A stretch of DNA of 64,000 nt, from positions 62,001-126,000 of the forward strand of contig NZ_JAEULM010000003.1 in NCBI RefSeq assembly GCF_016793825.1. The letters are read 5' to 3'. Positions 8,940 through 27,583 of the stretch are shown piece after piece. Numbering within the stretch: position 1 is the stretch's first letter; each line of letters starts with the position of its first letter. The notes below the pieces were generated by a model. That model was not told where the DNA came from. It saw only the letters and a list, made by a program, of their open reading frames with translations, and did not search any database. Both the position numbers and the translations under genes were made by a program. This stretch comes from Sphingopyxis sp. (GTDB lineage: Bacteria > Pseudomonadota > Alphaproteobacteria > Sphingomonadales > Sphingomonadaceae).

Positions 8940-8943
8940 GCAA

Positions 8944-11527: not shown

Positions 11528-11542
11528 GGGAGTGCGAACAGA

Positions 11543-12436: not shown

Positions 12437-12583
12437 ATCAACATCGCTGCGGCCGGCCCCCGCTCGCCGGTACGGTCGCACGGCATGTCGAAATGCGATA
12501 CGCTATCTCCGAAGGCAACGAACCGATCATCGTGGCATGCGGGTGCACATCCGCTTTTCCCCGGTCGGTGCAAGGGACAGGAT

Positions 12584-13444
12584 ATGGGCGACAAGATCGC
12601 GCTCGTCGAGGCGGGCGGCACCAAGTTCATTGTCGGCGTCGGCGATACCTCGCGGCAAATCCATGCGCGCACCCGCATCGAAACGACGCGCCCCGAGGAC
12701 ACGATCCCCGCCGCGGTCGAGTGGCTCCGCGCGCGGGGAGGCGACTATGCCGCAGTCGGCATCGCGAGCTTTGGACCGCTCGACCTCGACCGTGCGTCGC
12801 CTACATGGGGCCGTATCACGCGCACCGCCAAGCCGCATTGGAGTGGCGCCGATATCGCGGGGCCGTTCGCGCGCGCGTTCGGCTGCGCGGTCGCAATCGA
12901 CACCGACGTCAATGGTGCCGCACTCGCCGAATGGCGTTGGGGCGCCGGGCAGGGCGCGGCGACGGTGCTCTATCTGACCGTGGGAACCGGCATCGGCGGC
13001 GGCGCGGTCGTCGGCGGTCGGCTCATCCACGGCCTCAGCCATCCCGAGATGGGCCATATCCGTATGCCGCGGCATCCCGCCGACGCGGACTTTCCCGGTC
13101 ATTGTCCTTTCCACGGCGACTGCCTGGAAGGGCTTGCGGCCGGTCCGTCGATCATCGCGCGGTGGGGCGTTTCGCTGTCCGACCTTTCCGCCGACCACCC
13201 CGCGCACGACATCATTGCCTGGTATCTCGCGCAGGCGAGCCAGACCTTTCGCGCTGTTCTCGACCCCGCGCGCATCATCCTTGGCGGCGGCGTCATGAGC
13301 ACGCCGGGCCTGCTGGATCGGGTCAGGGCTCATGTCGGCAGACTGTGGGGCGGCTATTTTCCCGGAAACCCCGACGATATCATCGTTCCGCCTGCTCTTG
13401 GCCCCGACACCGGCTTGCTCGGCGCGCTCGCACTCGTGCGCTGA
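12584..13444 (+). CDS. ROK-family fructokinase
   Basis: Sugar kinase of 286 residues using ATP to phosphorylate a hexose, most likely fructose. The N-terminal phosphate motif reads VEAGGTKFIVGVG, the catalytic Asp lies in IDTDVNGAALAEW, the glycine-rich loop is LTVGTGIGGGAVV, and the ROK zinc site is complete: GLSHPEMGHIRM followed by CPFHGDCLEGLAAGPSI, the form typical of bacterial fructokinases. The true start is ATG 12584 (AAGGGACAGGAT upstream), not the longer ORF from 12485. It stands alone between the oxygenase operon and the convergent D-aminoacylase gene, with no sugar transporter nearby. Confidence 0.9.
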   Translation: MGDKIALVEAGGTKFIVGVGDTSRQIHARTRIETTRPEDTIPAAVEWLRARGGDYAAVGIASFGPLDLDRASPTWGRITRTAKPHWSGADIAGPFARAFGCAVAIDTDVNGAALAEWRWGAGQGAATVLYLTVGTGIGGGAVVGGRLIHGLSHPEMGHIRMPRHPADADFPGHCPFHGDCLEGLAAGPSIIARWGVSLSDLSADHPAHDIIAWYLAQASQTFRAVLDPARIILGGGVMSTPGLLDRVRAHVGRLWGGYFPGNPDDIIVPPALGPDTGLLGALALVR

Positions 13445-13486: not shown

Positions 13487-15184
13487 TTAGTGGCATGCCT
13501 TCCATCCCGGGCCACGGACGGCGCGTCCGGGGGTGGCCCCGCTCGGTTCGCCATTCGTCAGGACGGCCACGCCGTTGACGTAAACATCGCGCATTCCGAC
13601 GGCATATTGATGCGGCTTTTCGAAGGTCGCACGGTCAGCGACGGTTGCCGGGTCGAAAATCACGACATCGGCAAAATAGCCGGGCCTGAGCGCGCCGCGC
13701 TCTCGAATGCCAAGGTTGGTTGCGGGCAGCGACGTCAGGCGGTGGATCGCTTCTTCGAGCGAGATCAGCTTCTCGTCCCGGACATAGTGGCCAAGCAGGC
13801 GTGCGAAATTGCCGTAGGTGCGGGGATGCGAGCCAGATTTCAGAAAGACGCCTTCCGCCGATTGGGACGCGGCATCCGACCCGAAGCTCATCCATGGGAG
13901 CTGGACCTGCTTCCGAACATTGTCCTCGGACATCAGGAAGTAGACGGTGCCAACGCGCGATCCGTCCTCGATCACGAGGTTCATCGCGGTTTCTTCGGGC
14001 GATGTGCCGCGCATCGCCGCGACCTCGGCAAGGGTCTTGCCGGTCAGCGGTTTCAGCGCCTCGCTCTTGAAGCCGGTCAGGATCATCTTGTCTGCGCCGG
14101 CGCCCAGATAGAGATTCTCCCAGTCGCTGCCGGGTTTCTGCATTTCGGCGGCTACCTGCGCGCGCGTCGCGGGGTCTTTCAGCCGTTCGATCCAGGCTTC
14201 GAGCCCGCCCGATTGCACCCAGGTCGGCATTGCGGCGTCAAGCCCCGTCGCGCCTGCGGTATAGGTGTACATGTCGGTGGTGATGCGCAGGCCGTCGGCG
14301 CGCGCCGCTTCGATCTTCTTCACGACCGCGTCGAACTTGTCCCAGTTGCCGCGGCCCGCCATCTTGAGGTGATAGATTTCGGCCGGCGCGCCCGAGCGGC
14401 GCGCGATATCGATCAGTTCGTCGACGGCCTCTTCGAGCCGGTCGCCTTCGGATCGCATGTGACTGATATACATGCCGCCGCACTGTCCGGCTTCGCGCAT
14501 CAGGGCAACGAGTTCGTCGGTTTCGGCATAGGAGCCGGGCGCGTAGATGAGCGAGCTGCCGACGCCCAGCGCGCCCTCGTCCATCGCCTGTCGGACGAGC
14601 AGCTGCATCCGGTCGAGTTGTTCGGGTGTCGGGTCGACATCGTCTTCGCCAAGCTCGTGGACACGGACCGTCGCGGCACCGACGAAGCTGGCGACATTGG
14701 TCGCGATTCCTCGCCTTTCCAGATAGGCCAGATAGTCGCCGAGGCTTGTCCAATCGATCCGGTACTTGATGTCGCCCTGCCGCTCGGTCTCCTGCGCCTT
14801 CATCGTCGCGTTGAGCGGACCCATCGACCAGCCTTCGCCCATCACCTCCAGTGTGACGCCCTGGCGGATGTCGCTCTGACTGCGCGGGTCGGCAATCAGC
14901 GATTCGGTCGCCCAGCTCAGCATGTTGATGAAGCCCGGTGCGACTGCCATTCCGCGTGCCGATATCTCGCGCTTCGCCGACCCTTCGACCCGGCCAACCG
15001 CGACGATGCGATCGCCCCTGATTGCGACGTCGCCGGTGACGGGCGGTGCGCCCGAGCCGTCATACAGGGTGCCGCCGCGAATGATCAGGTCATAGGGCGG
15101 GGCGGCGGGGCGGGCCGCGACGGGCGCCGCGACCAGCAGCATGCCGCCGAGCAGCATGGCGCGAAGCGGGAGGCGCTCAACCAT
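13487..15184 (-). CDS. D-aminoacylase-like amidohydrolase lacking the HxH metal motif
   Basis: Secreted amidohydrolase of 565 residues in the N-acyl-D-amino-acid deacylase family, whose members release D-amino acids from N-acyl-D-amino acids or small D-peptides. Signal peptide about 1-24 (ending AAPVAA). Family features kept: YDLIIRGGTLYDGSG, DVAIRGDRIVAVG, YISHMRSEGD (H242), IYHLKMAG (H272) and SFGSDAAS (D437). Features changed: the strand-1 HxH is replaced by PGFINMLSW (83-91), and the NCG cysteine block reads EVMGEGW. One metal site is therefore altered or the enzyme is mononuclear. ATG 15184 overlaps the upstream regulator's stop by 8 bp, so regulator and enzyme are cotranscribed. Confidence 0.87.
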   Translation of the reverse strand: MVERLPLRAMLLGGMLLVAAPVAARPAAPPYDLIIRGGTLYDGSGAPPVTGDVAIRGDRIVAVGRVEGSAKREISARGMAVAPGFINMLSWATESLIADPRSQSDIRQGVTLEVMGEGWSMGPLNATMKAQETERQGDIKYRIDWTSLGDYLAYLERRGIATNVASFVGAATVRVHELGEDDVDPTPEQLDRMQLLVRQAMDEGALGVGSSLIYAPGSYAETDELVALMREAGQCGGMYISHMRSEGDRLEEAVDELIDIARRSGAPAEIYHLKMAGRGNWDKFDAVVKKIEAARADGLRITTDMYTYTAGATGLDAAMPTWVQSGGLEAWIERLKDPATRAQVAAEMQKPGSDWENLYLGAGADKMILTGFKSEALKPLTGKTLAEVAAMRGTSPEETAMNLVIEDGSRVGTVYFLMSEDNVRKQVQLPWMSFGSDAASQSAEGVFLKSGSHPRTYGNFARLLGHYVRDEKLISLEEAIHRLTSLPATNLGIRERGALRPGYFADVVIFDPATVADRATFEKPHQYAVGMRDVYVNGVAVLTNGEPSGATPGRAVRGPGWKACH

Positions 15185-15812
15185 GGAGGCTCATCAGCGA
15201 GTCCATGAGGCCGTCGTCGGCGCTGGAGCAGACCCCCAGTACGAGTGCTTCCTCGCACCCTTCAGCGACCACATAGGCGTGGCCCATCGACGAATCGATG
15301 TAGATGCCCTGACCGACTTCGAGTGTGACCGGGTCGTAGAATTCGCTGTGCACTTCGATCCGTCCTTCCAGAACATAGATGAATTCCTCGCCCTGGTGAT
15401 GAACGAGTTCGCCGAATTCGCTCGCGCTGTGGGCGCGGATGCGCGTCAGAATGGGGATCATCCGCTTCTGGCGCAGGTCGGTGCAAAGATAGTGATAGTC
15501 GTAATTGTCGGTCGTGACGCGCGCGGCGCGCTCGATCGTTCCGATGCTGCGGCGGCCGGTCACGCGCGGTGCGGCATCCTCTTCATCCTCGGCGAACAGG
15601 TCCGACATGCGAATCTGGAGTCGCTGGCTGAGCTGCTGGAGCTTGTCATAGCTCAGCGTCAGCCGGTCGTGTTCGACCTTTGACAGCGTCGAGACGGGTA
15701 TGCCCGATTTCGCGCTCATTTCCTTGAGCGTCCAGCCGTTCCGCGCGCGAATGCCTTTCATCACCGCGCCGAGCGTCGGCGGGCTTGATCGGTCCGCCAT
15801 CAGTTTTTCCAT
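15177..15812 (-). CDS. XRE-cupin transcriptional regulator
   Basis: Regulator of 211 residues with an N-terminal XRE/Cro helix-turn-helix (about 14-72: GAVMKGIRARNGWTLKEM, then SAKSGIPVSTLSKVEHDR) and a C-terminal cupin sensor barrel (about 130-190: LVHHQGEEFIYVLEGRIEV, GQGIYIDSSMGHAYVV). Such proteins commonly control amino-acid or polyamine catabolism and bind a small molecule in the cupin. Its ATG at 15812 lies 8 bp from a 21-bp sequence (15820-15840) that recurs at 18948-18968, each placed as a promoter for the rightward genes; this position would let it regulate itself and both rightward transcripts. It leads a two-gene unit with the D-aminoacylase. The ligand is unknown. Confidence 0.9.
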   Translation of the reverse strand: MEKLMADRSSPPTLGAVMKGIRARNGWTLKEMSAKSGIPVSTLSKVEHDRLTLSYDKLQQLSQRLQIRMSDLFAEDEEDAAPRVTGRRSIGTIERAARVTTDNYDYHYLCTDLRQKRMIPILTRIRAHSASEFGELVHHQGEEFIYVLEGRIEVHSEFYDPVTLEVGQGIYIDSSMGHAYVVAEGCEEALVLGVCSSADDGLMDSLMSLHG

Positions 15813-15819
15813 TCCAGGT

Positions 15820-15847
15820 TTGACAATTTTCTAATCAGGATCATTAT
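15820..15847 (+). promoter_or_regulatory. Promoter/operator copy 1 of the D-peptide regulon
   Basis: A -35-like TTGACA (15820-15825), 16 bases, then CATTAT (15842-15847) reads toward the serine hydrolase at 15940. Between them TTCTAATCAGGA is an imperfect palindrome (TYCTnATnAGRA). The 21 bases from 15820 match 18948-18968 at 19 positions. It also sits immediately upstream of the divergent XRE-cupin gene, so it probably serves as that regulator's binding site. Confidence 0.65.
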
Positions 15848-15939
15848 GTCCCCATCGGGCCAACGGATGTTGGCCCCTTGGTAAGGGTTCGCGCGGTTCG
15901 CTGCAAGGGTCAGAGAGCGCGCCGGCAAAAAGGGGGACG

Positions 15940-17919
15940 ATGATGCAATTCATCCACAAGCTGATGGTCGGGCTGGCCGCGCTCGCTGCGGTGCCGCTGG
16001 CAGCGCAGGGGCCGGTTCCGGCGCCCGCGACGAAAAAGGCGGAGGTACCGCCATTGATCGCGGCAAAGCCTGTGCAGACCGCGAATCTGACCCGCACTGA
16101 CCTTGAGGCCTTCCTTGACGGCTTTCTCCCCTATGCGCTCGAACGCGCCCGTATCCCGGGTGCCGTCGTCGTCGTCGTGCGCGGCGATCAGGTCGTGCTG
16201 GAAAAGGGTTATGGCTTTGCCGATGTCGCGAAGCGCAGGCCCGTCCTGCCCGAGACAACGCTTTTCCGTCCGGGATCGGTGTCGAAGCTCTTCACCTGGA
16301 CAGCGGTGATGCAACAGGTCGAGGCCGGCAAGCTGGACCTCGACAAGGATGTGAACAGCTATATCGACTTCAAGATTCCGGCCTATCAAGGCAAGCCGAT
16401 CACGCTGCGCAACATCATGACGCACACGGCGGGCTTCGAGGAGTCGGTCCGCTACCTGATCAGCAATGATCCCAAGGCGGTCATGACGCTGAAGAAGCAG
16501 ATGCCGTTGGCGTTGCCCGAACGGGTCTTCGCGCCGGGAACCACACCTGCCTATTCGAACTACGCCACCGCCCTTGCCGGCTATATCGTCGAGCGCGTCA
16601 GCGGCGAGAGTTTCGACGATTATGTCGACAACCATATCTTCAAGCCACTCGGCATGACGCATGCAAGCTTCCGTCAGCCGCTTCCCAAAACGCTCGTCGC
16701 CGATATGGCGAGCGGATATCCCGACATCACCCAGAAGGCGCGACCCTTTGAAATCGTGATTCCGGCGCCGGCGGGCAGCCTGTCGGCGAGCGGCGCCGAC
16801 ATGGGCAAGTTCATGATCGCGCATCTGAACGACGGTGCCGGCATACTGAAGCCCGAAACCGCAAAAATGATGCATGATTACAAGGCGCCTGGCGTCGGTC
16901 CGCTTAACGCCATGGCGCTCGGCTTCTACGAACAATGGGTCAACGGTCACCGGGCGATCGCGCATGGCGGCGACACCGTCTGGTTCCATTCCTATCTGTG
17001 GCTGTTCCCCGATGCCGATGTGGGCGTCTACATCTCGATGAACAGCCCCGGCAAGGAAGGGGCGGCGGGTGCGATCCGCAGCGCATTGTTCCATAAATTC
17101 GCTGACCGATACCTGCCCGGAACCGAGGCGCCCGGCCAGGTCGACGCGAAGGCCGCCAGGCAGCACGCACAGATGATGGCCGGCAATTATGTCACCAGCC
17201 GTGGTTCGTTCACCAACTTCATGAGCCTGTTCGGCCTGCTCGGCCAACCGACGGTCACGCTGACCGAAGAGGGCAAGATCAGCGTTCCGGGGCTTGATGG
17301 CCTGGGGGCCGGCGCACGCGACTGGGTCGAGGTCGAGCCGTTCGTATGGCGCGATACCGGCACCGGCGAACGTCTCGCGGCCGAAGTCAGAGACGGCCGG
17401 ATCGTGCGCTGGAGCCTCGATGCCGGGTCGCCCTTCATGGTGTTCGAGCCCGCCCCTGCCGGGATCAACGCGGCCTGGCTGAACGTGGCGCTGATCGCTG
17501 CCATCGGCATCGCATTGCTCGCCGCGCTTGCATGGCCGGTGCGCGCACTGGTCCGGCGCAGCTTCAAGGCGGATTTCGCGCTCACCGGCCAGGCGCGCCG
17601 CGCCTATCGCCTGTCGCGCCTGTGCGCGTGGCTGATACTGGTCGCGCTGGCCGGCTGGGTCGTACTGGTGGTCGCCTTCACGCTCGATATCGGCAGCATC
17701 GGCGGTCCGCTCGACTGGCTGATATATCTGCTGCGCGTCCTGACGCCGGTCGCGACGTTTGGCCTGCTCGGCACGGCGGCATGGCATCTGTGGCTTTGCG
17801 TCAGGGACAAGCGCCGCTGGACGATGAAGCTTGGTGCGGTGCTGCTGCTTTTCGCCGGCGCGGTGCTGACGTGGGTCACGCTCGCCTTCCATCTCTATGG
17901 CTTCGGGATGGTCTATTGA
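15940..17919 (+). CDS. Serine hydrolase, beta-lactamase fold, with C-terminal membrane domain
   Basis: Hydrolase of 659 residues in the class C beta-lactamase/D-aminopeptidase/EstB superfamily. A signal peptide covers about 1-22. The catalytic S-x-x-K is SVSK (S113, K116), the Y-x-N is YSN (Y205), and a late HGG (AIAHGGDTVW) supplies the third motif. After the catalytic domain come a beta-rich linker and, from about residue 515, four transmembrane segments, tethering the enzyme to the inner membrane with the active site probably in the periplasm. GGGGGA precedes ATG 15940 (15943 is equally possible). It overlaps the epimerase gene by one base (TGATG). Acyl-D-amino-acid or D-peptide hydrolysis fits the neighbours but is not proven. 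Confidence 0.88.
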   Translation: MMQFIHKLMVGLAALAAVPLAAQGPVPAPATKKAEVPPLIAAKPVQTANLTRTDLEAFLDGFLPYALERARIPGAVVVVVRGDQVVLEKGYGFADVAKRRPVLPETTLFRPGSVSKLFTWTAVMQQVEAGKLDLDKDVNSYIDFKIPAYQGKPITLRNIMTHTAGFEESVRYLISNDPKAVMTLKKQMPLALPERVFAPGTTPAYSNYATALAGYIVERVSGESFDDYVDNHIFKPLGMTHASFRQPLPKTLVADMASGYPDITQKARPFEIVIPAPAGSLSASGADMGKFMIAHLNDGAGILKPETAKMMHDYKAPGVGPLNAMALGFYEQWVNGHRAIAHGGDTVWFHSYLWLFPDADVGVYISMNSPGKEGAAGAIRSALFHKFADRYLPGTEAPGQVDAKAARQHAQMMAGNYVTSRGSFTNFMSLFGLLGQPTVTLTEEGKISVPGLDGLGAGARDWVEVEPFVWRDTGTGERLAAEVRDGRIVRWSLDAGSPFMVFEPAPAGINAAWLNVALIAAIGIALLAALAWPVRALVRRSFKADFALTGQARRAYRLSRLCAWLILVALAGWVVLVVAFTLDIGSIGGPLDWLIYLLRVLTPVATFGLLGTAAWHLWLCVRDKRRWTMKLGAVLLLFAGAVLTWVTLAFHLYGFGMVY

Positions 17920-18926
17920 TGGCAACGCAGAGCACGCGCGAACTGACGCTCGACCTTCGGGTCGAGCGTTTTCCCTATCACCAGCCGTTCCGCATTTCGG
18001 GTCATGTCTTCACCGAGACCGCCTTGCTTGTCGCGGAGTTGTCCGACGGCACGAACGTCGGTCGCGGCGAGGGGGCGGGAGTATATTATCTCGGCGACGA
18101 TATCGACCATATGCTGGCCGAGGCGTCGCGCGTTCGCGACCCGATCGAGCGGGGGGCAAGCCGGCAGGACCTCCAGGCCCTGCTGCCGCCCGGCGGCGCG
18201 CGCAACGCGCTGGACTGCGCTTTCTGGGATCTCGAGGCAAAGCGGACCGGGCGGCCGGTATGGGATCTGGCCGGCATGGGACCGCCAAAAGCCTTGCGCT
18301 CGACCCTGACGCTGGGCGCCGATGGCCCGGGCAACATGGCGAAGGCATCGCTAGCGCTCGACCCCGAGGCTCCGGTGAAGGTCAAGCTGACGGGCGATCT
18401 GTCGGATGACATCGCGCGCGTCGTCGCGATCCGAACCGCGCGCCCCGATGCGTGGATCGGGGTTGATGCGAATCAGGGCTATTCCATCGCGACGCTTGCC
18501 GAACTGCTCCCGGTTCTCGTCCAGATGGGCGTGGCGCAGCTCGAGCAGCCGCTGCCCCGCGGGCGCGAGGCCGATCTCGACGGGCTGAAGCGCCCGCTTC
18601 CCTTCGTTGCCGACGAAAGCGCGGTGACGCTGGGCGATACCGCCTCGCTTGTCGGCCGCTTCGATGTCGTGAATATCAAGCTCGACAAATGTGGCGGGCT
18701 TACCGAGGGTTTGGCGATCGCGCGGCAGGCGCGCAAATTGGGGCTCGACGTGATGGTCGGCAACATGATGGGAACCAGCCTGTCGATGGCGCCATCCTAT
18801 CTTGTCGGCCAGCTTTGCGACATCGTCGACCTCGACGGACCGACCTTCCTCGCGCGCGATCGCGAACCGGGCGTCGAATATCGCGGCGGCATGATCCACT
18901 GTCCTGCAGAAATTTGGGGCGAATGA
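17919..18926 (+). CDS. Dipeptide/N-acyl-amino-acid epimerase (enolase superfamily, DgcA/YcjG-like)
   Basis: Enolase-superfamily epimerase of 335 residues, the type that interconverts L,D- and L,L-dipeptides or N-acetyl-D/L-glutamate. Catalytic pattern of the muconate-lactonizing subgroup is complete: KxK in VKVKLTGD (K154, K156), metal ligands D183 (GVDANQGY), E209 (LEQPLP), D232 (ADESA), and the second base lysine in VNIKLDKCGG. There is no signal peptide, so it acts in the cytoplasm after import. The start ATG overlaps the stop of the membrane serine hydrolase by one base, indicating translational coupling. A DUF1611 protein encoded 3.4 kb downstream is the partner such epimerases have in the D-glutamate DgcN-DgcA pathway. 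Confidence 0.9.
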   Translation: MATQSTRELTLDLRVERFPYHQPFRISGHVFTETALLVAELSDGTNVGRGEGAGVYYLGDDIDHMLAEASRVRDPIERGASRQDLQALLPPGGARNALDCAFWDLEAKRTGRPVWDLAGMGPPKALRSTLTLGADGPGNMAKASLALDPEAPVKVKLTGDLSDDIARVVAIRTARPDAWIGVDANQGYSIATLAELLPVLVQMGVAQLEQPLPRGREADLDGLKRPLPFVADESAVTLGDTASLVGRFDVVNIKLDKCGGLTEGLAIARQARKLGLDVMVGNMMGTSLSMAPSYLVGQLCDIVDLDGPTFLARDREPGVEYRGGMIHCPAEIWGE

Positions 18927-18947
18927 CGAATTGATGTCCTAAATGGG

Positions 18948-18975
18948 TTGACAATTTTCTGATTAGGACAATAGT
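18948..18975 (+). promoter_or_regulatory. Promoter/operator copy 2 of the D-peptide regulon
   Basis: TTGACA (18948-18953), 16 bases, then AATAGT (18970-18975), reading toward the dipeptidase at 19009. The central CTGATTAG is the exact reverse complement of the CTAATCAG of copy 1 at 15820. The 82-bp gap between epimerase and dipeptidase thus holds a second start for the downstream genes. Confidence 0.65.
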
Positions 18976-19008
18976 CTCTGAATTGCAATTTTGGGAGGTA
19001 GAAACGGA

Positions 19009-20151
19009 ATGGCATTGTCATTCCCTGTGACGCGCCGTGCGATATTCGCGGGCGCGGTCGGGGCCGCTTTGTCCGCGCCGATGATCAACCGGGGCGCCTT
19101 CGCTTTCGCGGCGGCGCCTGCGCAAAGCTATTCGCGCCGCGCCATCGACCTCGTCGCAGCGTCGCTCGTCATCGACATGCTGGCTCCGCTCAAGATCACC
19201 CTGTCGCCCGATTATATCGCACACCGGCTGACCGATGCCGAAGCGGCAGAGTTTCGTGGCAGCGGGATCACCGGCTTTCACAACGCCTATGGCCTTGGCG
19301 GTCCCAACGCGAAAGCGCAGGCGATGGAATATCTCGCCGGCTGGCAGGGGTTCGCGGGGCGCAACAGCCATGTCTTCACGCTCGTCGACGATGCGGCCGA
19401 TCTCGATCGCGCCAAGAAGGATGGCAAGTGCGCCGTCATCATGGGAATCCAGAACGCCGACCAGTTCGAGAGCGCGGAGGATGTCGCGCTGTTCCGCCGC
19501 CTCGGGCTTCGCTGTGCGCAGCTGACCTACAACAGCCAGAACCGCATCGGATCGGGAAGCACCGACCGCGTTGACGGCGGAATCAGCGATTATGGCGCGG
19601 CGATCATCGCGGCGATGGAAAAGGCGGGCATGCTCATCGACGTGTCGCATTGCGGCGACAGGACGACGCTTGATGCGATCGCGATCGCCGGCGGGCCGAT
19701 CGCGATCACCCACAGCAACGCCCGTGCCCTGGTCGACCATCCGCGCGTCAAGACCGACGAGGCGATCCGGGCATTGGCGGCAAAGGGCGGCGTGATGGGC
19801 ATCACCGGTGTGCGCATGTTCGTGCGGGCGACCGATCCGACGGATGTCGGGCATATGGCGGACCATATCGACCATGTCGCAAAGCTAGTGGGGATCGACC
19901 ATGTCGGCATCGGGTCCGACGCCGATCTCAACGGCTATGACGACATGAAGCCCGACGAATATGCGCTGCTGAAGGCAGGCTACAAGGACAGCTACGCCTT
20001 TCGCGACAAGATCGACATCGACGGCTTTGATCACCCCAAGAAGGTCTTCGACCTGACGGAGGAACTGATCCGTCGCCGCTATTCCGACAAAAACATCAAG
20101 GCCGTGCTCGGGGGCAATTTCCGCCGCCTGCTTGGCCAAGTCTGGGGGTAA
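19009..20151 (+). CDS. Tat-exported M19 dipeptidase homologue with altered metal site
   Basis: Membrane-dipeptidase (M19) family protein of 380 residues. The N-terminus carries a twin-arginine-type signal (TRRAIFAGAVGAALSA), suggesting export in folded form. H214 (IDVSHCGD), H235 (ITHSNARAL) and the GIGSDADLNG Asp are kept. The first ligands are not: where other M19 enzymes have HxD this one reads LVIDML (54-58), and the bridging-Glu block reads GIQNADQF (146-153) instead of G-x-E-G-G. It may hold one metal or act on another amide. ATG 19009 has GGGAGG 10 bases upstream and begins just before the twin-Arg; the in-frame TTG at 18991 lacks a suitable site. Followed 4 bp later by the TonB receptor. 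Confidence 0.87.
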   Translation: MALSFPVTRRAIFAGAVGAALSAPMINRGAFAFAAAPAQSYSRRAIDLVAASLVIDMLAPLKITLSPDYIAHRLTDAEAAEFRGSGITGFHNAYGLGGPNAKAQAMEYLAGWQGFAGRNSHVFTLVDDAADLDRAKKDGKCAVIMGIQNADQFESAEDVALFRRLGLRCAQLTYNSQNRIGSGSTDRVDGGISDYGAAIIAAMEKAGMLIDVSHCGDRTTLDAIAIAGGPIAITHSNARALVDHPRVKTDEAIRALAAKGGVMGITGVRMFVRATDPTDVGHMADHIDHVAKLVGIDHVGIGSDADLNGYDDMKPDEYALLKAGYKDSYAFRDKIDIDGFDHPKKVFDLTEELIRRRYSDKNIKAVLGGNFRRLLGQVWG

Positions 20152-20155
20152 GACG

Positions 20156-22360
20156 ATGAACAAGGGATTTTTGATTGCAGGAAGCCTGGTCGCGCTGGCG
20201 ACCGCGATGCCGGCTTGGGCCGACGAAGCCGCGGGGGAGAATGAGAACGACATCGTCGTCACCGCGCAAAAGCGCGAGCAGCGCCTGATCGATGTCCCGC
20301 AGTCGGTGAGCGTCGTGTCGGGCGATGCGCTGGAGAATGTCCAGGCCACCAACTTTTCCGACTATCTGAAGCTCGTGCCGGGGCTTCAGCTCAACCAGAC
20401 GACGGCCGGTTTCGGCCGCCTCGTGCTGCGCGGCGTCAATACCGGCGGCGTGGCATCGACGGTCGCGGTCTACCAGGACGAAACGACCTTCGGGTCGAGC
20501 AGCGGCCTCGTCAACGGCGCGATCCTCGCGGGCGATTTCGATACCTTCGACATCGAACGGATCGAGGTTCTGCGCGGGCCGCAGGGGACCATCTATGGCG
20601 CCAGCTCGATGGGCGGCGTCCTCAAATATGTGACGCGCAAGCCCGAGACGGGCGCGTTCGAAGTCCGCGCCCGCGGCAGCGTCGAAACGGTCAAGGGCGG
20701 CGATGAATCCTATCTGGGCAGCGCGGTCGTCAATGTCCCGCTGGGTGACACGTTCGCGGTCCGCGCATCGGGGTTCTACCGCGACTTCGGCGGGTTCATC
20801 GATTCGATCGGGACCGGCGGATCGGATATCGAATCGGACATCAACAGCTCGAAAAGCTATGGCGGGCGCGCTTCGGTGCTGTTCAAACCGAGCGAGGGCC
20901 TTTCGATCCAGCTTAGCGCTTATCTTCAGAATCTGAAGACCCATGCCTCGAACAGCGTCGACAGTGACCCGTCGACCGGCCGAACGCTCTACGGTCGCCT
21001 CTCTCAGTCGCAGTTCGTGCCTGAATTTACCGACGTCCGCTACCGCGTCTACAGCGCGGTCGTCGATGCCGACCTCGGTTTCGCCAATCTGGTGTCGGCG
21101 ACAAGCTACAGCACCCTGTCGCAGTCGTTCCGTGGTGACCTGACGCCGCAGTTCGGGGGGCTGATCGAGGCGATCTTTGGCACGCCGAACGATTTCTATC
21201 AGGGGCAGCTTACGCGCGTTCGGCGCGTTTCGCAGGAAATCCGCCTCCAGTCGCCCGAAAGCGACAGCTTCGAATGGCTCGTCGGCGCCTATTATACCCG
21301 CGAGAAGGGGGTCATCGATCAGACATACAACGCGGTCCAGCCGGGGACGCTGACCCCGGTTGCCGGGCTGCCGCTGCTGGGCGTCGCAACGCTGAATTCG
21401 CGCTATCGCGAACTGGCAGGTTTCGCGAATGCGACACTTCACCTTGGCGAACGCTTCGACCTGACTTTCGGCGGCCGCTACAGTGGCAACCGGCAGGTGG
21501 CGAACCAGGTGTCGGACGGCATTCTTGCGGGAGGGCTCATCGTCCTGCCCGATACCCGGTCGTCCGAAAATGTCTTCACCTTCTCCGTCGCGCCCCAGTT
21601 CGAAATCAGCGATCAGGCAACCGTCTATGCCCGCGTCGCGAAGGGGTTCCGGCCCGGCGGCCCGAACGTCCTCGCGCCGGGAGCTCCGGACGAACTGCGT
21701 TCCTACGCCTCGGACTCGCTCGTCAGCTATGAAGTCGGCGTCAAGGCGGAGACGGTCGATCGCAGCTTCTCGATCGACATCGCCGCGTTCCACATCGACT
21801 GGAAGGACATCCAGGTCTTTGGCCTCGTCAACAATTTCGGGATCAACTTCAACGGCGGCAAGGCGAAGAGCGACGGTCTGGAATTCACGACCACGCTGCG
21901 CCCGACCGATGGCCTCAGCTTCTCGCTCAATGGTGCCTACACCAACGCGAAGCTGAAGGACGACACGCCGGCGCAGGTCGGCGGCCTGACGGGCGATCGC
22001 CTGCCCTATACGCCCAAATACAGCATCGGCGCCAACGCCGACTATGAATGGGCGGTGGGCGGCGAGACCAAGGCCTATGTCGGCGCGTCGGTGCGCAGCC
22101 TGTCGAAACAGCCTGCCGGCTTTGATTTCGCTTTCCGCAGCATCAATGGGCGCCAGCGCTATCTGCCGTCCTATGAGGTGGTCGATCTGCGTGCGGGGCT
22201 CGACTTCGGGAAATATTCGCTCGAACTCTATGCGAAGAATCTGACCGATGCCGAGGGCAAGACCTCGCTGGAGGCGCCGGCGAATATTCCGCTCGGCGCC
22301 GCGGGGACCGCGGTCATCCGGCCGCGCACCTTTGGCGTAACACTGACAGCCGGCTTCTGA
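20156..22360 (+). CDS. TonB-dependent outer-membrane receptor of the peptide-degradation block
   Basis: Receptor of 734 residues with signal peptide 1-23 (ending PAWA), TonB-box-like NDIVVTAQKRE, plug domain (DVPQSVSVVSGDAL, RIEVLRGPQGTIYGASSMGGVLKYVTRKP), and a beta-barrel ending GVTLTAGF. Its gene lies 4 bp after a dipeptidase and 18 bp before the DUF1611 gene, so the receptor should be made with the degradative enzymes and import their substrate, probably an oligopeptide or acyl-peptide too large for porins. No Fur-type box precedes it. Start chosen at ATG 20156, which leaves a clean signal peptide. Confidence 0.94.
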   Translation: MNKGFLIAGSLVALATAMPAWADEAAGENENDIVVTAQKREQRLIDVPQSVSVVSGDALENVQATNFSDYLKLVPGLQLNQTTAGFGRLVLRGVNTGGVASTVAVYQDETTFGSSSGLVNGAILAGDFDTFDIERIEVLRGPQGTIYGASSMGGVLKYVTRKPETGAFEVRARGSVETVKGGDESYLGSAVVNVPLGDTFAVRASGFYRDFGGFIDSIGTGGSDIESDINSSKSYGGRASVLFKPSEGLSIQLSAYLQNLKTHASNSVDSDPSTGRTLYGRLSQSQFVPEFTDVRYRVYSAVVDADLGFANLVSATSYSTLSQSFRGDLTPQFGGLIEAIFGTPNDFYQGQLTRVRRVSQEIRLQSPESDSFEWLVGAYYTREKGVIDQTYNAVQPGTLTPVAGLPLLGVATLNSRYRELAGFANATLHLGERFDLTFGGRYSGNRQVANQVSDGILAGGLIVLPDTRSSENVFTFSVAPQFEISDQATVYARVAKGFRPGGPNVLAPGAPDELRSYASDSLVSYEVGVKAETVDRSFSIDIAAFHIDWKDIQVFGLVNNFGINFNGGKAKSDGLEFTTTLRPTDGLSFSLNGAYTNAKLKDDTPAQVGGLTGDRLPYTPKYSIGANADYEWAVGGETKAYVGASVRSLSKQPAGFDFAFRSINGRQRYLPSYEVVDLRAGLDFGKYSLELYAKNLTDAEGKTSLEAPANIPLGAAGTAVIRPRTFGVTLTAGF

Positions 22361-22378
22361 CGGCCGGATAGGAGACGA

Positions 22379-23440
22379 ATGACCATGGCCACCGTGCTGC
22401 AACGGCGTGCAGACGCCGAACGGGAGGGTGTACCCACGCTTCCGCAGCCCTACCTGCTCTTCCTCGGCGACACCAGCGAGGCGGGCTATGCGAAGACCGC
22501 TTTCGGCCTTGCCGACTGGGCGGGTGACCGCTGCGTCGGCGAATGGTCGATCGCTGGCTGCACGGTCACCACCGGCCTGCCGCGCCTGTCGCCAGCCGAC
22601 GCGGCGGCGGCCGGTGCGCGGTCGCTGGTGATCGGGGTTGCGAACCAGGGTGGCATCATCGGCGAGCGCTGGGTCGCCGTTCTGGTCGAGGCGATGGAGG
22701 CCGGACTCGATATCGTCAGCGGGCTACACACCCGGCTGGCCAACATTCCGGCGCTGGTCGACGCGGCGCGGCGGACCGGGCGGCACCTGATCGACGTTCG
22801 CACGCCGCCGCCCCTGATTCCGGTCGGTAACGGTCGCAAGCGGAGCGGCAAGCGGCTGCTGACCGTCGGCACCGATTGCGCGCTCGGCAAGAAATACACT
22901 GCGCTCGCGCTGCACCGGGCCTTCGTCCGGCGCGGCGTCGATGCCGACTTTCGCGCGACCGGCCAGACGGGCATCATGATCGCGGGAGGTGGAATGCCGA
23001 TGGACGCGGTCGTTTCGGATTTCGAGGCGGGAGCTGCTGAAATGTTGAGTCCCGACGCGCCTGATGACCATTGGGACCTGATCGAAGGGCAGGGGTCGAT
23101 CTTCAACCCCGCCTATGCTGCCGTATCGCTCGGCCTGCTCCACGGCAGCCAGCCCGATGTGTTCGTCGTCTGCCACGATCCGACGCGCAAGGTGATCCTT
23201 GGCATGGAGAGCTTCGCGCTGCCGACGGTTGAAGACGTGATCGACCTGACGATCCGCCTCGGCAGCCGGACCAACCCCGCGATCCGCTGCGGCGGCATCA
23301 GCCTCAATACCGCAAGTTTCGATGCCGACAGTGCCGAAGCGCTGATGGCGGCCGAGCGCAAGCGGCTGGGGCTGCCGGTCAGCGATCCGATCCGCGGAGG
23401 CGCAAGCTTCGACGCACTCGTCGAAAACATTCTCGCGTGA
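22379..23440 (+). CDS. DUF1611 family protein (DgcN-like)
   Basis: Cytoplasmic protein of 353 residues with the DUF1611 two-domain layout: an N-terminal Rossmann-like half (LGDTSEAGYAKTAFGL, GVANQGGIIGERW, GLHTRL) and a C-terminal P-loop half with GTDCALGKKYTA (164-175) and IEGQGSIFNPAYAAVSLGLLHGSQPD. Family members called DgcN work with a DgcA epimerase in D-glutamate catabolism, making N-acetyl-D-glutamate for epimerisation; I recall this from the literature and cannot check it here. The epimerase of this locus is encoded at 17919-18926. AGGAG lies just upstream; Met 3 (22385) is an alternative start with better spacing. It overlaps the transporter gene (TGATG). Confidence 0.87.
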   Translation: MTMATVLQRRADAEREGVPTLPQPYLLFLGDTSEAGYAKTAFGLADWAGDRCVGEWSIAGCTVTTGLPRLSPADAAAAGARSLVIGVANQGGIIGERWVAVLVEAMEAGLDIVSGLHTRLANIPALVDAARRTGRHLIDVRTPPPLIPVGNGRKRSGKRLLTVGTDCALGKKYTALALHRAFVRRGVDADFRATGQTGIMIAGGGMPMDAVVSDFEAGAAEMLSPDAPDDHWDLIEGQGSIFNPAYAAVSLGLLHGSQPDVFVVCHDPTRKVILGMESFALPTVEDVIDLTIRLGSRTNPAIRCGGISLNTASFDADSAEALMAAERKRLGLPVSDPIRGGASFDALVENILA

Positions 23441-24588
23441 TGGTGGGCGATCCGGGCAGCAGGTTGAGTACGGACCCTAACTGGTTTCAGCGCTTCCTGC
23501 TGCCCGGCTTCGCGCTCAAGGCGGTCATCATTGGCGGCGGTTACGCCACCGGGCGCGAGCTGGCCGAATATTTCGTACCGTCCGGGCCGTGGGGCGGGCT
23601 GGCCGCGATGGCGCTGGCGACGCTGATCTGGAGCATCGTTGCCGCATTGACCTTCGCGCTGGCGCGCCAGTTCGGCGCCTATGATTACCGGGCCTTCTTC
23701 AGGGGGCTGCTCGGCCCCGGATGGATCGCGTTCGAGGGCGCGTATCTGGTCTTCGTCATCCTGATTCTCGCGGTGTTCGGTGCCGCGGCGGGAGCGATCG
23801 GCGCGGCGACCTTCGGCTGGCCCGAATGGGCGGGCGCGGTGCTGCTTGCGGCCGCGATCGTTGCGGTCGTCACCAGGGGGACCGGAGTCGTAGAGCAGAT
23901 GTTCAAATATGTCTCGATCCTGCTGTACACGGTTTACGGCCTGTTCCTGATCCTCGCGCTTGCGAGCTTCGGTGGGCTGATCGGACAGGGATTTGCCAAC
24001 GCTCCGCCGCCGTCGGGCAACTGGATGGCGGGTGGCATCACCTATGCGAGTTACAACATCGTCGGGGCGGTTGTGATCCTGCCGGTGCTGCGGCACCTGA
24101 CGAGCCGGCGCGACGCGATCGTCGCCGGGTTGATCGCCGGTCCGTTGTCGATGTTGCCGGCGATCCTGTTCTTCGTCGCCATGATGGCCTTCTATCCCGC
24201 GATCGGTGCCGAGACCTTGCCGTCGGATTTCCTGCTCCGCCAGATGACGGTGCCGGGCTTTCACATCCTGTTTCAGGTGATGATCTTTGCCGCGCTGCTC
24301 GAAAGCGGTGCGGGGGCCGTGCATGCGATCAACGAACGTATCTCGGGCGCGCTCGAAAGCCGGGGGCGCCCCGCGCTGACCGCGCGGGCCCGCGCTATCA
24401 TCGGCGCCGGCATCCTTGCCGTCTGCATGTTCGTCGCCGGCGAGATCGGCCTCGTCGATCTGATCGCCAGCGGATACCGCTTCCTCGCCTGGCTGTTCCT
24501 CGCGGTCTTCGTCGTCCCGCTTCTCACCATCGGCACATGGCGCCTGCTGCGCCGCCAACCCGTCACCACCATGGAGACTCCGGCATGA
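23440..24588 (+). CDS. YkvI-like integral membrane transporter
   Basis: Inner-membrane protein of 382 residues with about ten transmembrane helices. The first helix region GFALKAVIIGGGYATGRELAEYF has the broken, glycine-rich look of LeuT/APC-fold transporters, and the protein resembles the YkvI family of uncharacterised transporters. Further helices lie around 55-75, 95-145, 150-180, 205-240, 270-290 and 320-370. It starts at ATG 23440, overlapping the DUF1611 stop by one base, and overlaps the next serine hydrolase gene by four (ATGA). Within the block it is the only obvious inner-membrane carrier, so it probably moves the amino acid or dipeptide released in the periplasm. Substrate unproven. 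Confidence 0.82.
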   Translation: MVGDPGSRLSTDPNWFQRFLLPGFALKAVIIGGGYATGRELAEYFVPSGPWGGLAAMALATLIWSIVAALTFALARQFGAYDYRAFFRGLLGPGWIAFEGAYLVFVILILAVFGAAAGAIGAATFGWPEWAGAVLLAAAIVAVVTRGTGVVEQMFKYVSILLYTVYGLFLILALASFGGLIGQGFANAPPPSGNWMAGGITYASYNIVGAVVILPVLRHLTSRRDAIVAGLIAGPLSMLPAILFFVAMMAFYPAIGAETLPSDFLLRQMTVPGFHILFQVMIFAALLESGAGAVHAINERISGALESRGRPALTARARAIIGAGILAVCMFVAGEIGLVDLIASGYRFLAWLFLAVFVVPLLTIGTWRLLRRQPVTTMETPA

Positions 24589-26162
24589 AATCGATCCGCC
24601 TGTTCGCCCTGTCGCTGATGCTGTCGGCCGCGACGCCGGTTTGGGCCGATCCGCCCGCCGATATCGGCGAGAGCGTCGAGGCACTGCGGCAGAAGGTCGG
24701 CGCGCCCGGCGTATCGATCGCCATCGTCGAGGATGGCAAGACGACGTTGTCGCGCGGCTGGGGCGTGCGCAAACTCGGCGAGAAGGCGCCGATCGACGCG
24801 CAGACGATCTTCCAGACCGGTTCGACCGGCAAGGCGATGACCGCCGCCGCGCTCGCGGTGCTGGTCGATGAAGGCAAGATCGCGTGGGACGATCCCGTCA
24901 TCAAGCATATGCCCTGGTTCCGCATGTACGACCCGTGGGTCACGCGCGAGATCACCATTCGTGACCTGCTCGTCCACCGCAGCGGGCTGGGGCTGGGGCA
25001 GGGCGATCTGATGTTCGTGCCGCGCACCAACCTGACGCGCAAGCAGACGGTCGAGCGCGTCGCCTATCTCAAGCCCAGGACGAGTTTCAGATCGGCCTAT
25101 GCCTATGACAATATCCTCTATGCCGTCGCGGGGCAGTTGATCGAGGACGTCACCGGCCAGCGCTGGGAGGATTTCATCCGCGCGCGGGTACTCCGGCCAG
25201 GCGGCATGAAGAATGCGACCAGCGACAGCGAGGAGCGCTTTGCCGTTGCCAACCGCAGTTGGCCGCACGCGCGCCTGTCGGGGCCGTTGCGTGGGCTCGG
25301 CGATCAGCAGGCGCTGAACGAACGCGACGAGCTTGGGCGCAACGGCGCGCCGGCGGGCGGGCTGGCGCTTAGCGCCAACGACATGGCGGCGTGGCTCAAG
25401 ATCCAGCTCGCACATGGCGCACTGCCCGATGGCAAGCGGCTGTTCAGCGAGAAGCAGGCCGCCGAAATGTGGGCGCCGGTCATCCCGATGCCGATCACCC
25501 AGCTACCCGACCAGCTCAAACCGGCGCAACCGATGCAACAGGCCTATGCGCTTGGCTGGCAGGTGCAGGACTATCGTGGCCATCGCATCATTTCGCATGG
25601 CGGCGGTGTTTTCGGCTCGATCACCCGGGTCGTCATCATTCCTGACAAGAATGTGGCTTTCGCGATCATGATGAACAGCGAGGAGAGTGGGATGCTGCTC
25701 GGCCTCACCTACGAGCTGCTCGACCATTATCTGGGAGAGCCCGACTATGGCTGGACCACCAAATGGCAGGATTGGTATGCGGCGCGACTCGAAGGCGGCA
25801 AGGCGTTCCTTGAACAGAAGGCGGCGTCACCGGCCAAATCGGGTCCGTCGCTGCCACTTGCGGGCTACGCCGGGCGCTATCGCGATCCCTGGTATGGCGA
25901 TATCGTGATCGGACAGGACGCAAATGGCCTGACGATCGACTTCACGTCGACGCCGCGGATGGCGGGACGACTCAAACATTGGCAGTATGACAGCTTCGTC
26001 ACCGGCTTCGACGATCCGGCGATCGAGCCCGCCTATGTCACGTTCGCGCTCGACGCCGACGGCAAGGTCACCGACGTGACGATGAAGGCGGTGAGCCAGA
26101 TCGCCGATTTCAGCTGGGACTATCACGACCTCGACCTGAAACCCGTGGAGGACAAGAAGTGA
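24585..26162 (+). CDS. Secreted serine hydrolase, beta-lactamase/D-aminopeptidase fold
   Basis: Periplasmic hydrolase of 525 residues with signal peptide 1-21 (ending VWA). Catalytic motifs: STGK (S80, K83), YDN (Y174) and HGGG (IISHGGGVFGSI). About 100 C-terminal residues (GYAGRYRDPWYGDIVIG, LTIDFTSTPRMAGRL) form a lipocalin-like beta domain common in these peptidases. Unlike the first serine hydrolase of this block it has no membrane segments. It overlaps the transporter stop (ATGA) and its own stop overlaps the GTG of the final dipeptidase. Family members include D-aminopeptidases, esterases and the linear-microcystin peptidase MlrB; no other mlr gene is here, so general D-peptide hydrolysis is the safer reading. 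Confidence 0.88.
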   Translation: MKSIRLFALSLMLSAATPVWADPPADIGESVEALRQKVGAPGVSIAIVEDGKTTLSRGWGVRKLGEKAPIDAQTIFQTGSTGKAMTAAALAVLVDEGKIAWDDPVIKHMPWFRMYDPWVTREITIRDLLVHRSGLGLGQGDLMFVPRTNLTRKQTVERVAYLKPRTSFRSAYAYDNILYAVAGQLIEDVTGQRWEDFIRARVLRPGGMKNATSDSEERFAVANRSWPHARLSGPLRGLGDQQALNERDELGRNGAPAGGLALSANDMAAWLKIQLAHGALPDGKRLFSEKQAAEMWAPVIPMPITQLPDQLKPAQPMQQAYALGWQVQDYRGHRIISHGGGVFGSITRVVIIPDKNVAFAIMMNSEESGMLLGLTYELLDHYLGEPDYGWTTKWQDWYAARLEGGKAFLEQKAASPAKSGPSLPLAGYAGRYRDPWYGDIVIGQDANGLTIDFTSTPRMAGRLKHWQYDSFVTGFDDPAIEPAYVTFALDADGKVTDVTMKAVSQIADFSWDYHDLDLKPVEDKK

Positions 26163-27337
26163 AGCGTATCGCGATCCTGCTGACGGCGACGGCGCTGTCG
26201 GCCTGTTCAACCGGCGGCAACGCGCCGAAAGGTCCGGAGGCACCGTTGCACAGCCGGATGCTGGTCCTCGACACGCACCTCGACACACCGCTGCATTTCG
26301 AGCGAGCGGGCTGGAACTTCGCCGACCGGCACGCGCTCGCCGATGACATGGCACAGATCGATATCCCGCGGATGAAGGACGGCAATCTCGATGGCGGCTT
26401 CTTCGCCATTTACACCGAACAGGGACCGCTCACCGCGAAAGGCTATGCCGACGCGCTGGCGTTCGCGCGGAAGCGGTCGGACCTGATCGACCGGACGATC
26501 GCGGCGAATTCGGGTGCGATCGCCCCCGCGCTGACGGCGGCTGATGCGCTGCGGCTCAATAAGGAAGGCAAGCTGATCGCTTTCAAGTCGATGGAGAACA
26601 GCTATCCGCTCGGCGAGGATCTGTCGCTGCTCAAGGAATTCTACGACAAGGGTGTTCGCCTGGCGGGGCCGGTGCATTCGAAGGACAACCAGTTCGCCGA
26701 CAGCGCAACGGGCGAGGCGCGCTGGAATGGGCTGAGCCCGCTTGGCAAAGAGTGGGTTGCCGAGATGAACCGGCTCGGCATCGTCATCGACGCGAGCCAT
26801 GCGTCGGACGCGGCGTTCGACCAGATCCTTGCGCTCTCGAAATATCCGATCCTGCTTTCGCACTCCAGCTTGCGGTCGGCCTATAATCATCCGCGTAATC
26901 TGGACGAGGCGCGGTTGAAGGCGCTTGCTGCGAAGGGAGGCGCGATGTGCATTTCGACGATCTTCCTGTCGGAGATGAACATGTCGCCCGCGCGCGCCGA
27001 CCTGTTCGGCAAATATGAGCATATCGGCAGCATGACCCCGGCCGAGCAGGCCGACCTCAACCGCCGCTGGCGCGAACTCGACAAGACCGAGGCGTTATGG
27101 GCGGCCGGCTTCGAGGATTATATGAAGATGGTTCTCCGCGCTATCGAAGTCGGCGGGGTCGACCATATCTGCTTTGGGGCCGACTGGGATGGCGGCGGTG
27201 GCCTTCAGGGTATCGAGGATATCGCCGCGCTGCCCAAAGTCACCGACCGGCTGAAGGCCGCGGGCTATTCGGACACCGATATCGAAAAGATGTGGAGCGG
27301 CAACATCCTGCGCGTACTCGCGGCGCAGGGGAAATAG
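26159..27337 (+). CDS. Lipoprotein M19 membrane dipeptidase
   Basis: Zinc dipeptidase of 392 residues carrying a lipoprotein signal: LSAC lipobox with Cys16. It should sit on the periplasmic face of a membrane. All zinc ligands are intact: LDTHLDT (H40, D42), KSMENS Glu, IDASHAS and LSHSSLRS His, CFGADWDGG Asp. It is the last gene of the long rightward unit, starting at a GTG that overlaps the preceding stop (GTGA). It pairs naturally with the metal-site variant dipeptidase at 19009: one canonical dipeptidase to finish dipeptides and one diverged. Renal-type dipeptidases accept a D-residue at the C-terminal position, consistent with the theme of the block. Confidence 0.92.
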   Translation: MKRIAILLTATALSACSTGGNAPKGPEAPLHSRMLVLDTHLDTPLHFERAGWNFADRHALADDMAQIDIPRMKDGNLDGGFFAIYTEQGPLTAKGYADALAFARKRSDLIDRTIAANSGAIAPALTAADALRLNKEGKLIAFKSMENSYPLGEDLSLLKEFYDKGVRLAGPVHSKDNQFADSATGEARWNGLSPLGKEWVAEMNRLGIVIDASHASDAAFDQILALSKYPILLSHSSLRSAYNHPRNLDEARLKALAAKGGAMCISTIFLSEMNMSPARADLFGKYEHIGSMTPAEQADLNRRWRELDKTEALWAAGFEDYMKMVLRAIEVGGVDHICFGADWDGGGGLQGIEDIAALPKVTDRLKAAGYSDTDIEKMWSGNILRVLAAQGK

Positions 27338-27583
27338 TCAGGCCGCCGCCGCCAGTTCGGCGGTCAGCTCGACCTCGATCACCATGACCATCTCGCCAAG
27401 CTTGGCCGCAAGGATGGCGGCTTGCGGAGGGTCGAGACCGGCGACGGCGATCTCGACCCTCAGATGTTCGCGCAGATGACGCATCCGCATCGTCGACGGC
27501 ACGATCGCGCGCTGCGCGAAGAAGCCGGCTATGCGCGGCAGTGACCCCGGATCGGGGGTCGCATCGATCCGGAATCGATGCAT
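27338..27583 (-). CDS. Small ACT-like protein coupled to Leu/Phe dehydrogenase
   Basis: Protein of 81 residues, MHRFRIDATPDPGSLPRIAG onward. The length, the opening pattern (aromatic-rich strand, D-P-G-S-L-x-R-I helix) and the later LRVEIAVAGL and MVMVIEVEL strands match a single ACT/IlvM-type ligand-binding domain. ACT domains bind amino acids and regulate enzymes. ATG 27583 overlaps the dehydrogenase stop (ATGA), so the two are translated together, and it may be an allosteric subunit for that enzyme. It ends directly against the convergent dipeptidase gene. No experimental counterpart comes to mind. Confidence 0.72.
   Translation of the reverse strand: MHRFRIDATPDPGSLPRIAGFFAQRAIVPSTMRMRHLREHLRVEIAVAGLDPPQAAILAAKLGEMVMVIEVELTAELAAAA

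Follow-up and report, generated by a model that had tools for sequence, protein, structure and literature searches.

Which substrate is served by a compact set of hydrolase, receptor, carrier and amino-acid-inverting genes in Sphingopyxis sp., and are these genes controlled together? The locus occupies positions 13487-27337 of a 64,000-nucleotide stretch (assembly GCF_016793825.1, contig NZ_JAEULM010000003.1, 62,001-126,000; hereafter the window) and encodes a D-aminoacylase-like protein, an XRE-family regulator with a cupin domain, two beta-lactamase-fold serine hydrolases (SH1 and SH2), an enolase-superfamily epimerase, two M19-type proteins (M19a and M19b), a TonB-dependent receptor, a DUF1611 protein and an inner-membrane carrier. 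A preliminary description had listed these ten genes and read them as a regulon for the import and breakdown of peptides containing D-residues; all ten are present, the observation as a whole is partly confirmed and its interpretation is partly supported. D-amino acids and D-residue peptides account for a considerable store of organic nitrogen that is broken down slowly. The reading preferred here, with a probability of about 0.55, is that of a locally controlled catabolic regulon for the import and breakdown of D-residue peptides by a variant of the DgcN-DgcA route.

Conservation and a shared operator

The DgcN-like (DUF1611) protein was scanned against named genomes, and the best 80 of 536 relatives' loci, a choice favouring near relatives, were used for counting gene families (clustered at >40% identity; window not counted). 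SH1 was found in 72 of the 80 named loci, the carrier in 71, the DgcA-like epimerase in 70, the XRE regulator in 66 and SH2 in 65, followed by the receptor family (55), M19b (53), M19a (44) and the D-aminoacylase-like gene (41). The order XRE/SH1-DgcA-(M19a)-receptor-DgcN-carrier-SH2-M19b is the rule in Sphingopyxis and in many Erythrobacteraceae loci; in Rudaea, Luteimonas, Dyella and Arenimonas it can still be made out despite gaps and rearrangements. The synteny check in Sphingomonadales that had been proposed at the outset was run and came out in favour of the cluster: the gene set recurs together in relatives, and is for that reason more than a chance assembly. The cluster is real and conserved; it recurs in Sphingomonadales and a few Gammaproteobacteria, the nearest named clusters (among the best 80 of 536) being from Sphingopyxis. 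A published description of the gene set was not found among the open-access papers listed, nor was a paper on M19 substrates. In a tree of five of the proteins a Luteimonas locus groups with a Sphingomonas locus (support 99), the Sphingomonas row being long-branched; this grouping hints at transfer between classes.

The shared operator found at both starts of the plus-strand genes is new evidence for co-regulation. The intergenic region between the XRE and SH1 genes contains a block conserved in relatives, and the site, as judged by eye, spans the presumed -35 to -10 region. A strict search with the 29-nt sequence of site 1 (up to 3 mismatches) returned one site and missed site 2; a matrix made from 15 distinct sites located the second window site at 18947, in the gap before M19a, and matched at 82 of 141 loci (reversed-sequence control, 0). 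The joint 25-bp consensus TTGACAWTTYTCYRATYAGGAYMAT matches the 3.86-Mb assembly at exactly two places (<=3 mismatches), each of them in this cluster; the backward control gave 0. When up to 5 mismatches were allowed, the 141 loci yielded 147 sites (control, 0), and the operator was present at 69 of the 80 named loci, at 11 of 23 other loci and at 0 of 37 canonical loci, the latter comprising 20 loci from outside the bacterial family, drawn from the best-scoring of 69 genomes with an over-cut-off DgcN, and 17 from within it. By position, the site stands before SH1 in 59 cases, before M19a, the receptor, DgcN or the POT-family symporter gene in 59, and in both places in 53. Matches to the joint consensus were obtained in 8 of 20 chosen relatives and were absent from ten genomes with only an over-cut-off DgcN; a genus mate has two, located on the contig that carries its 452-bit DgcN, while the contig with its over-cut-off copy has none. 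At L042 and L073 a D-aminoacylase-like gene located elsewhere carries its own operator site.

The claim of a regulon is upheld as far as the common operator and the conserved synteny reach. The ten genes form divergent units, two on the minus and eight on the plus strand. Whereas nearly all junctions had been said to overlap by 1-4 bp, this is true of four of the eight same-strand junctions; one (regulator/D-aminoacylase-like) overlaps by 8 bp, and the remaining three are gaps of 82, 4 and 18 bp, the first of which contains the second promoter/operator.

Two further layouts were seen among the relatives. At L054, L057, L060 and L079 a second, paralogous arrangement runs XRE, SH1, DgcN, carrier, alpha/beta hydrolase and D-aminoacylase-like gene, followed by another serine hydrolase, DgcA and an amidohydrolase resembling Xaa-Pro dipeptidase. 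A third, at L064, L078, L080 and L081, has M19a-DgcN-SH1 and another serine hydrolase behind a divergent receptor; there DgcA was seen only in L080, further down.

The DgcN-DgcA-like core and its residue differences from the canonical pair

The best NCBIfam match of the DUF1611 protein is DgcN (NF041892), at 450.7 bits against a cut-off of 480 (450.6 in the genome scan); PF07755 and PF17396, the N- and C-terminal DUF1611 domains, are both over cut-off, and 7xrj is matched with E 1.4e-100. For the epimerase the best NCBIfam match is DgcA (NF042940), at 358.0 bits against a cut-off of 400, compared with 235 bits for the L-Ala-D/L-Glu epimerase model; it matches 1jpd at 2.1e-62 and has the DLDG motif in common with YcjG. 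Judged by homology, the two are a DgcN and a DgcA homologue, i.e., members of the known pair that acetylates and then racemises D-glutamate, so that the cytoplasmic half of the cluster is of a known kind, with the pair here as a separate clade under the curated cut-offs. The preliminary description knew of no named system with this set, which no longer stands for these two families; its dipeptide epimerase was right as to the enolase-superfamily type, the protein being nearer to DgcA than to the dipeptide enzymes. PMC12363236 describes dgcN as the key gene of a pathway that irreversibly racemises acidic D-amino acids and the corresponding amides, with Yu et al. 2023 (ISME J 17:537) cited for the DgcN-DgcA pathway; its EC (Enzyme Commission) numbers are 2.3.1.312 and 5.1.1.25 (PMC11747546). 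For a Shewanella the pair was judged, from transcript levels, very likely the main D-Glu route (PMC10845958).

The 120 DgcA sequences comprise 81 with Gly21 (window included) and 39 canonical ones with Arg21 (YcjG numbering), a split that is clean by construction, residue 21 defining the groups; this does not apply to positions 24 and 50 or to the tree. The catalytic and metal-binding residues K149, K151, D176, E202, D225 and K247 are present in 81/81 window-type and 39/39 canonical sequences. Position 24 is Phe in 79 and Ile in 2 of the window type, as against Lys (24), Arg (13), Asp (1) and His (1) in the canonical group, where it is thus basic in 37 of 39; the window protein has Phe. Position 50 is Tyr in 98% of the window type and Arg in 95% of the canonical type. 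When these loop columns were removed, the window type formed one side of a branch (44 of 84 rows) with a Shimodaira-Hasegawa-like approximate likelihood ratio test (SH-aLRT) value of 99. Among DgcN rows, Arg29 and Arg255 (7xrj chain numbering), a feature found in this analysis and not a published criterion, each occur in 36 of 38 canonical rows (those with an Arg21 DgcA in the same locus), whereas the 96 window-type rows (>=60% identity to the window protein) have Ala at 29 in 98% and Leu at 255 in 94%. Of 144 rows (7xrj included), 90 have Ala-Leu and 36 have Arg-Arg. Among 124 pairs taken from one and the same locus an Arg-Arg DgcN never accompanied a Gly21 DgcA, nor the reverse (three pairs lack the residues on one side), and L160 and L170 are in-between cases that are partly independent. 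The group counts leave out the DgcA fragment L066_3 and the divergent or badly read DgcN of L124, L150 and L154. Residue roles were looked for in PMC3605383 and none were found. Elsewhere in the genome a stand-alone epimerase (L176, G000:C7:126000-143000, gene 8122-9408) is 46% identical to the DgcA-like protein.

Because the canonical basic residues are absent from this clade, a non-acidic, neutral or hydrophobic side chain is indicated, and the substrate is likely a D-residue without an acidic side chain. A plain regulon for D-glutamate or other acidic D-amino acids, in which the remaining genes would feed DgcN and DgcA with D-Glu from, e.g., peptidoglycan fragments, would agree with DgcN and DgcA being the best family matches, with their use for D-Glu elsewhere (PMC10845958, PMC11747546 and also PMC12363236) and with a genome that has ArgJ and in which no second DgcN match was found. 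It is nevertheless unlikely: both proteins stay under the equivalog cut-offs, the conserved basic residues of the canonical pair are missing from the clade, and in ten of the family's 199 genomes an over-cut-off DgcN occurs together with a 418-478-bit one, as if these did different things.

The distribution of DgcN is as follows. Among 289 genomes of the class a match was found in 75, over cut-off in 69; among the 199 of the family it was found in 50, of which 26 have an over-cut-off copy, 32 have 418-478-bit copies and the above ten have both (the last two counts made by hand). This bit-score band is not identical to the clade, L170 lying in the band and keeping one Arg. One genome (G371) has seven matches, one of them over the cut-off, and such multi-copy genomes with different hydrolase sets suggest a family of routes for different D-residues. 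In L163 (G425) the DgcN-like copy at about 7262 looks degraded, with stretches out of line with its relatives. At the canonical loci outside the family DgcA adjoins DgcN in 20/20, and the carrier, XRE, M19, SH2, receptor, D-aminoacylase-like and POT genes were found in 0/20 (E 1e-12); there was one partial SH1 match of 25%, and an Lrp match in two. Within the family, no carrier, XRE, M19, SH2 or POT match was found in the 17 canonical loci; a D-aminoacylase homologue is nearby in 14, and a TonB receptor or a weak SH1 match was seen in several.

A reading less probable still than a D-Glu regulon is that the epimerase acts as a dipeptide epimerase (L-Xaa-D/L-Xaa, hydrophobic) on imported dipeptides, with the DgcN-like protein acylating something else. 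The YcjG-type DLDG motif is retained, and a POT-family peptide symporter (PTR2; TIGR00924 at 280 bits, over cut-off, for the one representative scanned) occurs in 9 of the 80 named loci. An enolase-superfamily epimerase active on L-Ala-D/L-Phe, Tyr and His is known, and for YcjG the intrinsic substrate is stated to be L-Ala-D/L-Glu (both PMC5808125, section 4). The DgcA model, however, outscores the dipeptide-epimerase model (358 vs 235 bits), and the loci fetched by DgcN contain the DgcA-like gene in 70/80 and the LeuT-fold carrier family in 71/80.

Envelope proteins, layout and neighbouring genes

Translations read by eye show Sec-like N-termini on SH1, SH2 and the D-aminoacylase-like protein, a twin-Arg signal on M19a and an LSAC lipobox on M19b, in agreement with the export signals assigned earlier. 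Secreted hydrolases, cytoplasmic inversion enzymes, TonB receptor and LeuT-fold carrier are all supported as parts of the system; the further claim that each family handles D-amino acids was overstated. SH1 and SH2 match the models for class C beta-lactamase, AmpH and D-aminopeptidase, all far under cut-off (class C beta-lactamase: 87.5 and 55.3 bits, respectively, against 415), and in two other proteins metal ligands expected for the family are missing. The SxxK, YxN and HxG motifs are invariant in 72/72 SH1 and 66/66 SH2 members.

Of the two supposed M19 dipeptidases one fits well: M19b has the usual metal-site residues (nearest solved structure 2rag, 3.6e-120), with the metal-site residues HxD, Glu, His, His and Asp invariant in 54/54 members. 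M19a is nearest to 2i5g among solved structures (2e-39) but has no HxD and has Gln for Glu, as throughout an alignment of 17 sequences in which two His and the Asp are kept (17/17). The D-aminoacylase-like protein is homologous over most of its length to D-aminoacylase and N-acyl-D-glutamate deacylase (1rjp, 3gip). The HxH and Cys are missing: FINMLSW stands where D-aminoacylases show FIDSHTH, and the region expected to hold the Cys reads GEG. The Cys/His/His metal site and HxH of subtype V amidohydrolases are thus incomplete, two His and an Asp being retained. Among its homologues (47 of 74 rows) most from other window-type loci likewise have no HxH, and those beside canonical pairs mostly keep it and also lack the Cys. 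In the relative PpOngB, mutation of either His of the HxH abolished activity (PMC12017989). With their partial metal sites, the D-aminoacylase-like protein and M19a may work as enzymes with a single metal or serve other functions.

A plus-strand gene of >600 codons lies just upstream of DgcN in 54 loci (that of L058, not identified as a receptor, is outside the tree), and the receptors, window included, fall into 17 types when grouped at 65% identity. Mapped on a tree of the five conserved neighbours (54 rows, 16 types), they require 26 changes, the minimum possible being 15; 200 shuffles of the types gave a mean of 30.0 and none as low as 26. The types therefore agree partly with the tree, yet no fewer than 11 changes are surplus, and L009, L016 and L022, which are closely related clusters, have three different types. 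The receptor gene has been swapped repeatedly while its neighbours were conserved, i.e., the outer-membrane step evolves separately from the other parts; the driver may be either a change of substrate or attack by phages or bacteriocins. Frequent swapping, as in receptors under attack, together with two class C beta-lactamase-fold proteins and the M19 proteins, would also agree with detoxification of peptide or beta-lactam antibiotics in place of nutrition. We regard this as very improbable, as a cluster with a TonB importer, a carrier and inversion enzymes in the cytoplasm looks made for using such molecules and not for defence, and both hydrolases score far under the cut-off for class C beta-lactamase.

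No Pfam or NCBIfam model and no PDB sequence matched the carrier, and its family (36 members) yielded only four single-member, chance-level Pfam names. Its predicted model (predicted local distance difference test score, pLDDT, 92.2; predicted template-modelling score, pTM, 0.89) is of the LeuT type and assigns it the LeuT/APC fold. The best template-modelling (TM) score among the Foldseek matches listed was 0.72, to a bacterial asc transporter; the fold resembles that of the BasC/LAT transporters (6f2g, 0.72; 9h76, 0.71), whereas ranking by E-value puts other LeuT-fold proteins (9a52, Nramp) at the top.

Features of the cluster, with positions in the window
Feature	Position	Strand	Remarks
D-aminoacylase-like protein (Amidohydro_3)	13487..15184	-	signal-like N-terminus; two His and one Asp kept
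XRE-family regulator with cupin domain	15177..15812	-	PuuR is best full-length NCBIfam match, far under cut-off
Promoter/operator site 1 (TTGACA and conserved CTAATCAGGATCATTATG)	15819..15851	+	divergent intergenic region, 5' of SH1
SH1, class C beta-lactamase-fold serine hydrolase	15940..17919	+	hydrophobic (membrane-type) C-terminal stretches; SxxK, YxN, HxG intact
DgcA-like enolase-superfamily racemase/epimerase	17919..18926	+	catalytic residues intact; Gly/Phe/Tyr at 21/24/50 (YcjG numbering)
Promoter/operator site 2	18947..18979	+	inside 82-bp gap 5' of M19a
M19a, M19-like protein	19009..20151	+	twin-Arg signal; no HxD; Gln replaces Glu
TonB-dependent receptor	20156..22360	+	slot conserved, receptor type varies among relatives
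DgcN-like (DUF1611) acyltransferase homologue	22379..23440	+	under DgcN cut-off; Ala/Leu at Arg29/Arg255 (7xrj chain numbering)
Inner-membrane carrier (YkvI-like in the preliminary description)	23440..24588	+	predicted LeuT/APC fold; top listed TM score BasC, bacterial asc/LAT
SH2, beta-lactamase-fold serine hydrolase	24585..26162	+	DUF3471; signal-like N-terminus; SxxK, YxN, HxG intact
M19b, lipoprotein-type M19 dipeptidase	26159..27337	+	usual metal-site residues

Beside M19b lie genes for an ELFV-type amino-acid dehydrogenase (27583-28593, minus strand; best model tryptophan dehydrogenase ScyB, 283 bits against a cut-off of 600) and an Lrp-type regulator (28761-29225, plus strand). The dehydrogenase could take up an L-amino acid product; as a part of the system it was rejected, being within three genes of M19b in just 15 of 53 loci. 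On the other side (9077-13444) are a second TonB receptor, an MpaB/Lcp-type oxygenase and a ROK fructokinase-like gene, before which no operator was found at up to 5 mismatches. A TauD-type dioxygenase followed by an FAD/NAD-binding protein (30034-32327) is apparently unrelated.

Proposed route and comparison with known systems

In the proposed D-residue regulon the TonB receptor would import the peptide, and outside the cytoplasm SH1, SH2 and the lipoprotein M19b, whose active sites are intact, would cut it down to small peptides and release D-amino acids. The carrier, joined in some relatives by the POT symporter, would move these products into the cytoplasm, where the DgcN-like enzyme, by analogy with the characterised pair, would N-acylate the D-amino acid and the DgcA-like enzyme would racemise the N-acyl-D-amino acid, which drains to the L-form. 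Most likely, these enzymes act on a neutral or hydrophobic side chain and not on that of glutamate, if Ala/Leu in the one protein and Gly/Phe/Tyr in the other are a guide. The XRE-cupin regulator would act at the two promoter sites of the same type, before SH1 and before M19a.

Several points weigh against this reading. The substrates and activities of all ten genes are predictions from sequence, and the cluster has no cytoplasmic L-aminoacylase to finish the route; ArgJ, which acts on N-acetyl-ornithine/Glu, is present in the genome. The operator is missing at 11 of the 80 named and 12 of the 23 other loci; G367 and G446 have 418-478-bit DgcN copies yet no operator match, several DgcN copies of G371 have no operator nearby, and one operator match of G371 (3 mismatches) is on a contig without a listed DgcN. 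The link between the XRE-cupin regulator and the sites is positional. As to the residues, the lack of basic ones goes back essentially to a single event within one clade, so that the DgcN/DgcA pairing does not represent many independent co-changes. Residues 29 and 255 of DgcN are only presumed to line the acceptor pocket, and residue 24 is taken to contact the Glu side chain in L-Ala-D/L-Glu epimerase. R50 discriminates poorly, because Tyr50 is also found in the L176 epimerase, which keeps R21 and K24.

More tentatively, and with rather less confidence than the regulon itself, an undescribed route can be proposed in which non-acidic (probably hydrophobic or aromatic) D-amino acids would be inverted by N-acylation and enolase-type racemisation, in place of flavin or pyridoxal-phosphate enzymes, by retuned paralogues of the D-Glu pair DgcN-DgcA under a two-promoter XRE-cupin switch and with an exchangeable receptor. 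If non-acidic D-residues are indeed inverted, annotation as 'DgcN/DgcA, D-Glu' or 'dipeptide epimerase' misleads in many Sphingomonadales genomes, and the whole route from import to inversion would be testable with two purified enzymes.

Two known systems invite comparison. Like muropeptide recycling (YcjG/YkfB), the cluster has an enolase-superfamily epimerase beside peptidases; it differs in that R21 and R24 are replaced, the R21/K24 epimerase sitting elsewhere in this genome, and in that no gamma-D-Glu-diaminopimelate endopeptidase was found among 10 extra proteins scanned with Pfam (six representatives of the relatives' recurrent families and four window neighbours). On this result for the 10 proteins and on the absence of Glu-type residues, peptidoglycan recycling is probably not the primary role. 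From the DgcN-DgcA pathway the cluster differs in that both proteins are under the cut-offs and form their own clade without the conserved basic residues, in that they are joined by the XRE-cupin regulator, TonB receptor, SH2, M19 proteins and carrier (0/20 at canonical loci outside the family), and in its operator, absent at all 37 canonical loci examined; it agrees with that pathway in having both enzyme families in one cluster and in keeping the catalytic residues of DgcA.

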